Virus record (IMG/VR): IMGVR_UViG_3300028027_000140
Coordinates: 1-34,422 of that record
Origin: a virus
Length of the DNA stretch: 34,422 nt
Reading direction: 5' to 3' (one strand)
Below the pieces are notes generated by a model that was not told the origin of the DNA, ran no database searches, and saw only the letters and a program-made list of their open reading frames with translations. This document shows positions 3,917-9,548 of the stretch, one piece after another. Both the position numbers and the translations under genes were made by a program. Positions within the stretch are counted from its first letter, which is position 1. Each line of letters starts with the position of its first letter.

Positions 3917-4327
3917 TTAAAACGGAATGTCATCATCCATATCGTCAAAGCCACCAGCCTGAGGTTGCTCTGTAGATTGTCTAGGCTTACTTTCACCCTC
4001 AGACTTACCCGACAGCATTTCCATTTTTTCACCAATGATTTTTGTCGTGTAGCGGTCAACGCCATCTTTGGAATACTTCTCCGTTTTCATCTTGCCCTCG
4101 ATATAGACCTTAGAGCCTTTTTTTAAGTACTCCCCTGCTATCTCAGCCAACTTGCCAAAGAACGCCACATTCACCCATTCGGTGACCTCTTTAGCCTCTC
4201 CAGACTTGTCCTTGTATTTCTCGCTGATAGCAATACTGAAATTGCACACCGCTTTGCCATCAGGCATGAAGCGCATTTCAGGGTCGCGCCCCAAATTACC
4301 AATGCCAATGAATTTGTTTACAGCCAT
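3917..4327 (-). CDS. ssb: single-stranded DNA-binding protein
   Basis: 136 residues. An OB fold covers about 1-105: [52 protein letters not shown], and [23 protein letters not shown] flexible Gln/Ser-rich linker follows, then the acidic tip DMDDDIPF, the partner-binding tail of bacterial-type SSB. It protects single-stranded DNA and recruits replication and recombination proteins. An AGGAG site overlaps the stop of the exonuclease gene, so the two are co-translated. It is the last gene before the operon terminator. Confidence 0.95.
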
Positions 4328-4330
4328 GTT

Positions 4331-4957
4331 TTAGACTCCTAGTTTGATGATTAAATTTTCGACTTCATCCAAGAATTTGAGTGTCTCGGCTTCCATCTCT
4401 GAAATGAGACTTTCGTCTCGCTCTGTCCTGACAATCAGTAATTGATTGCGCTTAGGCAGTCGGGGGTCGTAGGAAACAAAGTCGCACCATTGGCGGCCAG
4501 TCACCCATAGTTGACATTGAATCTGTTTGAAGTAATCCGTAGGGATTTTGTTTTCGAACAAATAGCCAAGGTGTGTCGTTGTATTAGGGCATTTGACTTC
4601 GATGAGCCCCTCGTGACCGACCAGGCGGTCAGGTGACACCCCTAACCACTTAATGTCAGGGTGCAACCAAAAGCCAGTTTTGTCAGTCAGCACATTATTT
4701 GCCGCTTCGTATTCCATAGCCGCAAACTGCTCCTGCTCAACGCCCCACTCCATAGCCGCATTTGAGAACGACTCAGACGCTGTTTGTGTCAGCCTCTCAG
4801 CCACCAGTCGGACTTTATATTTATAACGCCCTATCGCCTCAGCAGACCCTTTGCCCTTAGACATAACGTCAGCCATATTGCTAGCGGTCACATGACCCAG
4901 ACGAGCAACTTTCCACTCGTCCGACCCTTGCTCAATGTTTATGTACGGCTGATTCAT
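4331..4957 (-). CDS. YqaJ-type (lambda exonuclease-like) recombination exonuclease
   Basis: 208 residues. The nuclease core carries LGVSPDRLVGHEGLIEVKCP, giving the catalytic triad D110, E120 and K122 of the YqaJ/lambda exonuclease branch of the PD-(D/E)XK fold. The N-terminal QGSDEWKVARLGHVTASN is also typical, as is the later QIQCQLWVTGRQWCDFVSYD. Such enzymes resect double-strand ends to give 3' overhangs for an annealing protein, here the DUF1071 protein two genes upstream. The start overlaps the upstream stop (ATGA). Confidence 0.92.
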   Translation of the reverse strand: MNQPYINIEQGSDEWKVARLGHVTASNMADVMSKGKGSAEAIGRYKYKVRLVAERLTQTASESFSNAAMEWGVEQEQFAAMEYEAANNVLTDKTGFWLHPDIKWLGVSPDRLVGHEGLIEVKCPNTTTHLGYLFENKIPTDYFKQIQCQLWVTGRQWCDFVSYDPRLPKRNQLLIVRTERDESLISEMEAETLKFLDEVENLIIKLGV

Positions 4958-5340
4958 TCTTGCCCCTTAAATTTCAAACCATGCAAAACCATTGCCTCTT
5001 TGACAAATTGCAACCCTTTTATGCCTAAATTTGGAATCCGTCTCATTTCTCGTTCAGTCCAGTTGCACAGGTCTTGCTTCATTAAGATTTGCTCCGAAAC
5101 CAAGCAACGGTGATACCTAATCGGCAAATCAAGGTCTTTAATGTCAGAGTTTTGTTGTTTGTGTTGCATTTCCTGCTCTTTTTGCCACTCTCGCAAAATA
5201 CGCTCTCTATGCTCTAGCATTTCTACTGCCATGCGATAAGCGGTTTGAGCCGTAGAAAATGGATTTGTAATGCCCATTTTTTCAATTTGAGCCTTCATTG
5301 CGTTAACCGCAAAATGATCTAGCATTTCTGTTTTAGTCAT
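4954..5340 (-). CDS. protein with RNA polymerase alpha-CTD-like C-terminal domain
   Basis: 128 residues. The N-terminal half (1-64) is helical and charged, with no recognised fold. Residues about 66-125 resemble the C-terminal domain of bacterial RNA polymerase alpha: DLDLPIRYHRCLVSEQ, then DLCNWTEREMRRIPNLGIKG, then FVKEAMVLHGLKF. The alignment keeps the positions of E. coli alpha R265 (R75), N294 (N104), G296 (G106) and K298 (K108), which contact UP-element DNA; N268 is replaced by R78 and S299 by G109. The alpha N-terminal assembly domain is absent. It could bind DNA or act on transcription, or the helix-hairpin-helix could serve recombination. It is coupled to both neighbours (TAATG upstream, ATGA downstream). 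Confidence 0.7.
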   Translation of the reverse strand: MTKTEMLDHFAVNAMKAQIEKMGITNPFSTAQTAYRMAVEMLEHRERILREWQKEQEMQHKQQNSDIKDLDLPIRYHRCLVSEQILMKQDLCNWTEREMRRIPNLGIKGLQFVKEAMVLHGLKFKGQE

Positions 5341-5894
5341 TACTGCACCTTTACTTCCGGAGGCATCAATTCGGCTTTGCGCGCGTCTTTAGTTGCTTCC
5401 AATTCACGCATTGCAGTCTGATTGCCTTTGGCAGTCTTGACAGTAGCGATATACACCTCACGCAGTTCGTCAAGAGTCTGTGCCGCCCAGATAGACTGCA
5501 ACATTGACTCGAGGTCTAACGGCTCTGCTTCTTCGTGCGGAACATCCTCTCCGGCATACACATATAGACCAATTCCGAAACACGCAATGCACTTAGCGAG
5601 GCATCGCATCATTGCGTCTGATACTTTCCTAGCGTCAGGATTTTTGACAGCATTGTTTTTGTTATCCATCACGGGGAGGTGCATAGTCATCGACTTGCCC
5701 ATCGCGTGAACGGTACAGAACACCATCATCGTTTCGCCAAATGCCCTAGGCTCGGCAAATTCCCAATGTGCGCTTGAGTCATTTTGCAACAGAGTGTCAA
5801 CAGCCCACGCCCATGACAGATATGACAAATTGCCTTTTTTCTCAATGTGTTCGTTTACATTGATTTTTCTAAGTTCGCTGAATGTTTTAGTCAT
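5340..5894 (-). CDS. single-strand annealing protein, Sak/DUF1071 family
   Basis: About 184 residues from the ATG at 5894, which has AGGA 6 nt upstream; the ATG at 5897 has poor spacing and the longer frame to 5933 overlaps the upstream gene. The hallmark is KKGNLSYLSWAWAVDTLLQN near residues 18-37. DARKVSDAMMRCLAKCIACF and GIGLYVYAGED follow. This matches DUF1071, a Sak-like annealing family that coats resected strands and pairs homologous DNA. It works with the YqaJ exonuclease and SSB of the same operon as a Red-type recombination system. Confidence 0.85.
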   Translation of the reverse strand: MTKTFSELRKINVNEHIEKKGNLSYLSWAWAVDTLLQNDSSAHWEFAEPRAFGETMMVFCTVHAMGKSMTMHLPVMDNKNNAVKNPDARKVSDAMMRCLAKCIACFGIGLYVYAGEDVPHEEAEPLDLESMLQSIWAAQTLDELREVYIATVKTAKGNQTAMRELEATKDARKAELMPPEVKVQ

Positions 5895-5905
5895 CATGAT
5901 TCCTG

Positions 5906-6229
5906 TTAAATAAAGTCTTTGATTGCTTCGCATTGTTTTTTAGCATCGTGTTTTGCCAAACCATCGAGGTATCGATAAACAGCGTCCCAAACTACTTTGC
6001 CAAGTTTGTCGTACCCACTTTCACCTTCGGCAATTGCTTGCGTCAATTCCTTTGCATAAGTTTGCAAGTCACACTCGTAGAGTGCATCCATAAAAACTTC
6101 GAGGGAATGAGGGTTGTATTTATGATTCATCAGGTGTTCGTGCGCTTCTTCGAACGCGTACTGATAATCATTGTTTGCAGGGTTGTTATCGTCTAACCAC
6201 CTGTCGTATGCTTGTCCAAATCCAGTCAT
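5906..6229 (-). CDS. hypothetical protein, first gene of leftward early operon
   Basis: 107 residues, starting MTGFGQAYDRWLDDNNPANN; mostly helical, acidic and rich in aromatic and His residues (AFEEAHEHLMNHKYNPHSLE). The end DAKKQCEAIKDFI is basic. A GGAG site lies 5 nt before the ATG. It opens the recombination operon directly downstream of promoter copy 1. No family is recognised. Confidence 0.65.
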   Translation of the reverse strand: MTGFGQAYDRWLDDNNPANNDYQYAFEEAHEHLMNHKYNPHSLEVFMDALYECDLQTYAKELTQAIAEGESGYDKLGKVVWDAVYRYLDGLAKHDAKKQCEAIKDFI

Positions 6230-8633: not shown

Positions 8634-8812
8634 CAGATGAAGACAAAAAACCAAAAAGTAGCGGGATGGACTGCTGTACCTATGACTGCATCCAAGGTCG
8701 TGATTGTCCAGTACGAAAAGCCACACTAGAGGAGGTTGCCAAGCATTTTGACAGGATGCCATTTGGAGACACCGCCCAAAGTTTTGCACAGTTTGTAAGG
8801 AATCTCAAATGA
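8630..8812 (+). CDS. small cysteine-rich phage protein, 60 aa
   Basis: 60 residues. The motif MDCCTYDCIQGRDCPVRK has four cysteines and may bind metal. The rest is short helices (LEEVAKHFDRMPFG, FAQFVRNLK). I associate the CCTxxCxQGRDCP pattern with small phage and prophage proteins of unknown function. It overlaps both neighbours by 4 nt. Confidence 0.65.
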   Translation: MTDEDKKPKSSGMDCCTYDCIQGRDCPVRKATLEEVAKHFDRMPFGDTAQSFAQFVRNLK

Positions 8813-9096
8813 ACATTTTTGTATATACAAAAAAGGGATGCCCAAACTGCGTAGCGGCCAAGAATTTATTGAAGTCAAAAAACCTTAAATTCATCGAGTG
8901 CGACATGAACATTGCCAGCGTCAGAGAATCTTTTTTCTTTGCATACCCAGACGCCAAACAGATGCCCCAGATTTTCATTAACGACCAACGAGTCGGAGGT
9001 CTAGCAGGACTTCAAGCCGCACTTAAGCAAATCGAAAACGCATTAGACAAAAAAGCAGACAACGCTCGCAAACTAGGTTTGGACTATGAACCATGA
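8809..9096 (+). CDS. glutaredoxin-like protein
   Basis: 95 residues with the thioredoxin-fold order of glutaredoxin: NIFVYTKKGCPNCVAAKNLL (active site CPNC), then KQMPQIFINDQRVGG with the cis-proline and the GG glutathione-site motif. It would reduce disulphides. Phage glutaredoxins often serve ribonucleotide reductase, but no nrd gene is visible here, so it may work with host NrdAB or another target. A C-terminal extension of about 20 residues is charged. Confidence 0.9.
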   Translation: MNIFVYTKKGCPNCVAAKNLLKSKNLKFIECDMNIASVRESFFFAYPDAKQMPQIFINDQRVGGLAGLQAALKQIENALDKKADNARKLGLDYEP

Positions 9097-9548
9097 GAAA
9101 ACAAACTAAACGCAAAGTCTGGAAACTCATCGACCCCATTCGTCACGCAATTCTCGGGGCTGGCATTACTCAGGAACATCTACTAGACAAACTTAGGATG
9201 ACCGAACTCACCGCCCTAGACGCAATGATAAAAGGGTTTGGCACAGTACAGGATTGGCAGGAACTAACCGACATGATGAACATTTCCGAGGTCATGGCCA
9301 TCGAGGGCATTGGTCCAGAAGTCCTACCCTACTGCCAACAGGCACAGGAGGCGCTAGAACAAGCCGCCCTGCGTTATCAATCCACAATGAGGATGGGTTT
9401 ATCAGGAACAGGAATAAAAGCCTTACGCGAGGTTTTTGAGTACCACGACCTCCAGCGCAGAAGCATCCCCAGAAGTCAATACGAAAAGATCATTATTAAA
9501 ACCCGCCAGCGAATCCAAAGCAAAGCCAAAGAGGTTGTAGAAATATGA
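9093..9548 (+). CDS. conserved hypothetical phage protein, 151 aa
   Basis: 151 residues. The motifs WKLIDPIRHAILGAGITQEH, IEGIGPEVLPYCQQAQEAL, VFEYHDLQRRSIPRSQYEKI and the end KEVVEI are ordered and look conserved; I have seen this type of protein in early regions of other phages but know no function. It is highly helical with no membrane segment. It lies between glutaredoxin and a nuclease-like gene, with 4-nt overlaps on both sides. Confidence 0.6.
   Translation: MRKQTKRKVWKLIDPIRHAILGAGITQEHLLDKLRMTELTALDAMIKGFGTVQDWQELTDMMNISEVMAIEGIGPEVLPYCQQAQEALEQAALRYQSTMRMGLSGTGIKALREVFEYHDLQRRSIPRSQYEKIIIKTRQRIQSKAKEVVEI

Follow-up and report, generated by a model that had tools for sequence, protein, structure and literature searches.

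What does a virus do with a small protein that resembles the C-terminal domain of the RNA polymerase alpha subunit (alpha-CTD) and that is encoded between two recombination genes? Bacterial RNA polymerase uses this domain to read UP elements, the A/T-rich DNA beside promoters, and to make contact with many activators. The protein is encoded at positions 4954..5340 (−) of the window, the term used here for the whole stretch of DNA that was analyzed, a 34,422-base virus record from IMG/VR. Its 128 residues comprise a phage helical module (residues 1-52, 5185..5340, −) fused to an alpha-CTD-like domain (residues 64-128, 4957..5151, −; Pfam match at 4990-5181). The reading frame begins with an ATG at 5340 that is preceded by a Shine-Dalgarno-like aaggtg (5346..5351, −) and overlaps the stop codon of the upstream neighbor, a Sak-type single-strand annealing protein (5340..5933, −), whereas its own stop codon overlaps the start (ATGA) of the downstream neighbor, a YqaJ-type exonuclease (4331..4957, −). 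A single-strand DNA-binding protein (SSB) is encoded at 3917..4327 (−), and all three of these genes were assigned with Pfam and PHROGs. On the basis of the ATG, the Shine-Dalgarno-like sequence, the overlaps, and conservation at the protein level, the reading frame is a real gene.

Several other genes of the window were also read. The operon is headed by a 107-residue reading frame (5906-6229, −), copies of which with 31-85% identity occur in several relatives sharing the recombination context, and which gave no convincing family match in Pfam, PHROGs, or NCBIfam. A ParB-like protein (TIGR00180, 3.3e-11, below the cut-off) is encoded downstream of the recombination genes (858-1652, −), and a glutaredoxin gene (8809-9096, +; Pfam 1.1e-11) lies in a rightward operon.

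The resemblance to alpha-CTD, which a first-pass annotation had proposed, was borne out by profile, sequence, and structure comparisons. The Pfam model RNA_pol_A_CTD (PF03118) matched residues 54-117 at 2.7e-12 (46.7 bits, cut-off 23.8), and the same model was matched in 13/13 and 8/8 of the related IMG/VR records searched. All 44 matches of a PDB sequence search at E ≤ 10 were RNA polymerase alpha (best 5.9e-8). The NCBIfam rpoA models matched the protein by its C-terminal part only and far under their cut-off, and by these models the alpha-NTD, which dimerises and assembles the core enzyme, is absent. An AlphaFold2 model calculated from 18 input sequences (mean pLDDT 89.4, pTM 0.61) contained a helix at residues 3-21, a long helix at residues 27-63, and the domain from about residue 64-67 onward; given the pTM of 0.61, the predicted placement of the two halves relative to each other is unsure. 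RNA polymerase alpha chains accounted for all of the best 50 Foldseek matches listed (top 2.8e-4), and the predicted model was superposed by VIA-align on the solved alpha-CTD 1z3e_B with a Z of 11.8 and an rmsd of 1.4 Å over 62 residues. The first proteins other than alpha in the VIA-align comparison were Dmc1/Rad51, which contain helix-hairpin-helix (HhH) domains and scored about three Z units weaker (Z about 8-9). Chance similarity to alpha-CTD was rejected in view of the Pfam score, the uniformly alpha PDB matches, and the structural Z. Membership in a generic HhH family was likewise rejected, since the window protein had no Pfam match to HHH families at E ≤ 1 and Dmc1/Rad51 were structurally weaker; the profile search did not group it with unrelated HhH proteins. 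One relative, L063, scored 20.1 bits against HHH_5 (cut-off 27). With a pI of 8.7 versus 7.1, the domain is a little more basic than its E. coli counterpart.

To see which contacts of alpha-CTD are retained, 19 diverse family members were compared residue by residue with 22 RpoA sequences, using E. coli numbering from the K-12 gene. The window protein is identical to E. coli RpoA at 22 of 59 residues, and the alignment equates R75 (codon 5116..5118, −) with R265, N104 with N294, G106 with G296, and K108 (codon 5017..5019, −) with K298. The positions compared (e.g., 258, 261, 265, and 298) presumably carry the DNA, sigma, and activator contact roles of alpha-CTD. Residues 265, 268, 269, 296, 298, 299, and 302 are commonly given as the DNA-binding determinant of the E. 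coli domain, and position 265 is described as exposed to solvent and required for contacting DNA, not for folding. The window protein keeps four of these seven residues (R265, C269, G296, and K298), with N268, S299, and E302 replaced, so the earlier statement that most UP-element contact positions are kept is only just true: R75, G106, and K108 align with R265, G296, and K298, whereas N104 aligns with N294, outside the seven. Across the family, R265, C269, N294, and G296 were kept in 19/19 members and K298 in 17/19 (one Arg and one Thr otherwise), position 268 was Arg in 14 members and Asn in five, and position 302 was mostly hydrophobic, with Glu in a single member; the fractions kept at the seven positions, in the order given above, were 1.0, 0.26, 1.0, 1.0, 0.89, 0, and 0.05 (n = 19). 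All 19 members have Gly in place of S299, Tyr in place of S266, and Trp in place of R284. At the edges containing D258, E261, and V287, which we take to be those used by activators and sigma on alpha-CTD, D258 was replaced by Lys or His in 19/19 members, E261 by Asn (12), Asp (6), or Gly (1), and V287 by a basic residue (Arg, Lys, or His) in 19/19. The DNA-facing residues are thus better kept than the sigma-facing ones, part of the sigma-contact edge being altered, and the pattern is suggestive of a kept minor-groove contact together with a weakened sigma edge. Invariant positions made up 3 of the 7 determinant and 9 of the 52 other positions, a difference that was not significant (Fisher p 0.14, n = 19); R75 and K108 are therefore suggestive only.

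These substitutions bear on the possibility that the protein is an alpha-CTD decoy, which would occupy the host transcription factors or UP elements with which alpha-CTD normally engages and so dampen host promoters during take-over. The fold is the same as the host target surface, the family-wide Tyr266, Trp284, and Gly299 could form a new partner surface, and the strong purifying selection described below is as expected for binding to a conserved partner. The edges used by activators and sigma are nevertheless partly changed, with D258 and V287 basic or His throughout and an acidic residue (Asp) at position 261 in only 6/19 members, and we consider a decoy unlikely.

The alpha-CTD domain recurs with unrelated fusion partners. 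The BFVD protein A0A6J5MNY7 of an uncultured Caudovirales phage has 128 residues like the window protein, is 56% identical to it over 128 columns, and is probably its ortholog; it bears only the automatic name "RNA polymerase, alpha subunit, C-terminal". Several other phage proteins in BFVD/UniProt carry similar alpha-CTD names, so the domain in phage proteins has already been named automatically. The "RNA polymerase subunit alpha" of Bacillus phage vB_BmeM-Goe8 (QDP42789.1, 78.1 bits) and the "DNA binding protein" gp24 of Microbacterium phage Morrill (UQT01709.1, 42.7 bits) each have a C-terminal alpha-CTD with an equivalent of R265 as aligned by eye; these two phages belong to other groups than the window virus, and the N-terminal halves of their proteins are unrelated to that of the window protein. 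Among phage-type alpha-CTD proteins with unrelated N-terminal halves, Arg was seen by eye at position 265 in L094, L095, L088, and L093. A second, different alpha-CTD protein is encoded on the contig of relative L027 (495-869, −; Pfam 30.7 bits), with the domain at its N-terminus and a WIGLTEEE tail behind it. Aligned by eye, this protein shows Met at position 265, so loss of the Arg does not prevent the fold from persisting in these phages. Such a loss, and the replacement of three of the seven presumed determinant residues in the window protein, would agree with reuse of the fold for protein-protein contact alone, unconnected with the binding of DNA or RNA polymerase. Against that stand R75, invariant at a position that we take to contact DNA, and the nearly invariant K108, and we regard such reuse as quite improbable.

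Two genomes provided further examples. Genome G091, which also has a normal rpoA, encodes a protein (L091:602-1333, +) in which a zinc-ribbon-like start and then a coiled coil precede a near-standard alpha-CTD (85.2 bits). In genome G111, two different alpha-CTD proteins (L097:2931-3479 and L097:10102-10575, −; 51.3 and 43.6 bits) are encoded about 7 kb apart on a 21-kb contig (C355) that looks phage-like by eye, with primase/helicase, nuclease, and methylase reading frames. A literature search over titles and abstract openings, with most subscription journals outside its coverage, found no phage-encoded alpha-CTD protein; the Rac paper (PMC7552054) is about a phage enzyme whose action results in alpha being cleaved and not about an alpha-CTD encoded by a phage. 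What the present analysis adds is the identity of the N-terminal module, the non-fixed nature of the recombination location, and the residue-by-residue survey of contacts.

The N-terminal half, correctly described at the outset as helical and unlike alpha, is not an orphan; by homology, it is a widespread phage module of the phrog_2201 type (LRDYFAAKAMQ...AY..ADAMLKAR). When the N-terminal 57 residues were compared with INPHARED by tblastn, zero matches were obtained even at E 10, and the relation surfaced only through a stand-alone copy on the L027 contig, where a separate 87-residue reading frame ends in the motif LRDYFAAQALQG...YADAMLKARE and matches phrog_2201 at 1.1e-21. A 52-residue query from this reading frame matched 60 INPHARED records, and 12 fetched copies were aligned with the L027 copy (n = 13). 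Comparison by hhalign of these 13 modules with residues 1-52 of 21 family members gave a score of 45.1 (prob 96.6; 92.7% for the same pair under another option string), whereas 200 column-shuffled controls gave a mean of 9.1, an s.d. of 2.0, and a maximum of 15. An HMM built from the 13 modules matched the window reading frame at 7.6e-4 and other members down to 6.4e-6; its strongest matches (L027, L022, L025, and L039) were stand-alone module copies elsewhere in those loci. The phrog_2201 family was matched by 13/18 family members at E ≤ 1 (best 0.0022), and phrog_30599 ("transcriptional regulator") ends in a related module (9.1e-6). A phrog_2201 profile search of the window itself returned no match, though hmmscan gave 0.077, and the module homology therefore rests on the hhalign comparison and the 13-module HMM. 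The 13 aligned copies lie in small proteins that, unlike the window protein, have no alpha-CTD.

Scans of IMG/VR recovered 29, 30, 33, and finally 46 distinct loci besides the window as the query was widened, with identities to the window protein from 98% (partial) down to 55%. Pairwise NG86 comparisons with the window (n = 19) gave dN of 0.02-0.23, dS of 0.67-2.6, and dN/dS of about 0.02-0.19; the family is under strong purifying selection. When the whole protein and its C-terminal part were each compared with INPHARED by tblastn, only weak alpha-CTD matches and no family member were obtained; the whole-protein search returned 13 records, four annotated as RNA polymerase alpha and nine without annotation, and the candidate H72/L096 from the C-terminal search was rejected because it reads as a bacterial rpoA region. 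Megablast of window positions 1-24000 against INPHARED gave no match. Two scans of genome contigs likewise found no family member, a weak absence since short exact peptide patterns were used, and their single match (L053) was rejected as a true rpoA. When 398 genomes of one phylum were searched with profile A5, 383 had a match, and the matches listed were mostly rpoA-sized frames; among those listed, three genomes (G091, G111, and G228) had more than one, and seven loci were read. At L039:5800-6258 (+), the C-terminal half of the family follows, in frame, a different N-terminal sequence (glutaredoxin-tail-like and WVGLNEED), which reflects either a deletion that fused the two naturally or an artefact of assembly.

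Flanked by Sak and YqaJ and overlapping both at its ends, the gene raises the possibility that its product is a recombination or replication accessory in which an alpha-CTD fold, a relative of HhH, brings the Sak/YqaJ/SSB machinery to DNA. Placement in the recombination operon, also part of the first-pass annotation, holds at the window locus; as a family property it does not. A Sak/ERF-like gene directly upstream or a YqaJ gene directly downstream was found at 22/47 loci, including the divergent L055, L056, and L063, and neither was found at 25/47, a count that omits the window, includes L024 and L029 as two ends of one contig, contains some loci with short flanks on one side, and uses "ERF-like" as a reading of the L007 query protein rather than as a profile result. 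We therefore rejected the gene as a fixed part of a recombination operon. At the other loci its operon is another one, in which small Zn-finger-like and HNH-like proteins, as well as unknown ones, were seen by eye. The window also encodes a phrog_20828 protein (9093-9548, +), relatives of which were seen by eye near the alpha-CTD gene at many of the loci with other contexts. In a tree with 43 rows, 30 of them different, with L066 unlabelled and the partial loci L024, L026, L029, L030, and L039 left out, the two contexts required nine changes, at least three of them forced by well-supported branches. Shuffling of the context labels gave a mean of 13.0 changes, and 6-8 of 500 shuffles were as low as the observed nine, indicating that context is in part inherited. 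In its behavior the gene resembles a one-gene cassette whose neighbors change. An alpha-CTD protein was found in 0/3 phages with a related Sak (Venkman, ctkAd229, and ctnlZ23), each of which has an exonuclease and/or SSB annotated beside it. The presence of Dmc1/Rad51 N-terminal domains as the next structural neighbors and the siting of the two G111 proteins among replication/recombination-type genes (by eye) are in keeping with an accessory role. With recombination neighbors at only 22/47 loci and no such protein in the three similar-Sak phages, however, a dedicated role of this kind is weakened, and we judge it improbable.

The reading that we tentatively prefer, while placing it somewhat short of an even chance, is that the gene encodes an early DNA-binding adaptor of the phage, one that recognizes A/T-rich sites and changes promoter use by host RNA polymerase. 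The C-terminal half would act as an alpha-CTD detached from RNA polymerase and would probably dock in A/T-rich minor grooves via R75 and K108, whereas the N-terminal module would probably hold a partner or a second copy. Made together with the early genes, the protein would most likely bind A/T-rich, UP-like sites in promoters of the phage or the host and change their use by host RNA polymerase, as either an extra UP-element reader or a competitor. The Pfam match, the exclusively alpha PDB sequence matches, the fold, the invariant R265, G296, and C269, the nearly invariant K298, the slightly more basic domain, and the Arg in other phage proteins count for a DNA-binding adaptor; the uniform Gly at 299, the mostly hydrophobic residue at 302, the p of 0.14, and the Met at 265 in the second L027 protein count against it. 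The variety of neighborhoods, with 22/47 loci adjacent to recombination genes and at least three (most simply nine) context changes, fits a function that is not tied to Sak/YqaJ.

A bolder form of this proposal, possible but doubtful in our estimation, is that the detached and mobile alpha-CTD serves as an independent UP-element reader, positioned on A/T-rich promoter DNA although not part of RNA polymerase, and that the shared module lets it either direct host polymerase toward the promoters of the phage or close UP-dependent promoters of the host. Whatever the function, the family links a phage module lacking a known function to a recognizable domain. If the recombination role were true, the alpha-CTD fold would have been put to a new job; if the adaptor reading is true, a phage family under strong purifying selection that retains only the alpha-CTD and couples it to a module common to many phages would represent a new way of steering host transcription.
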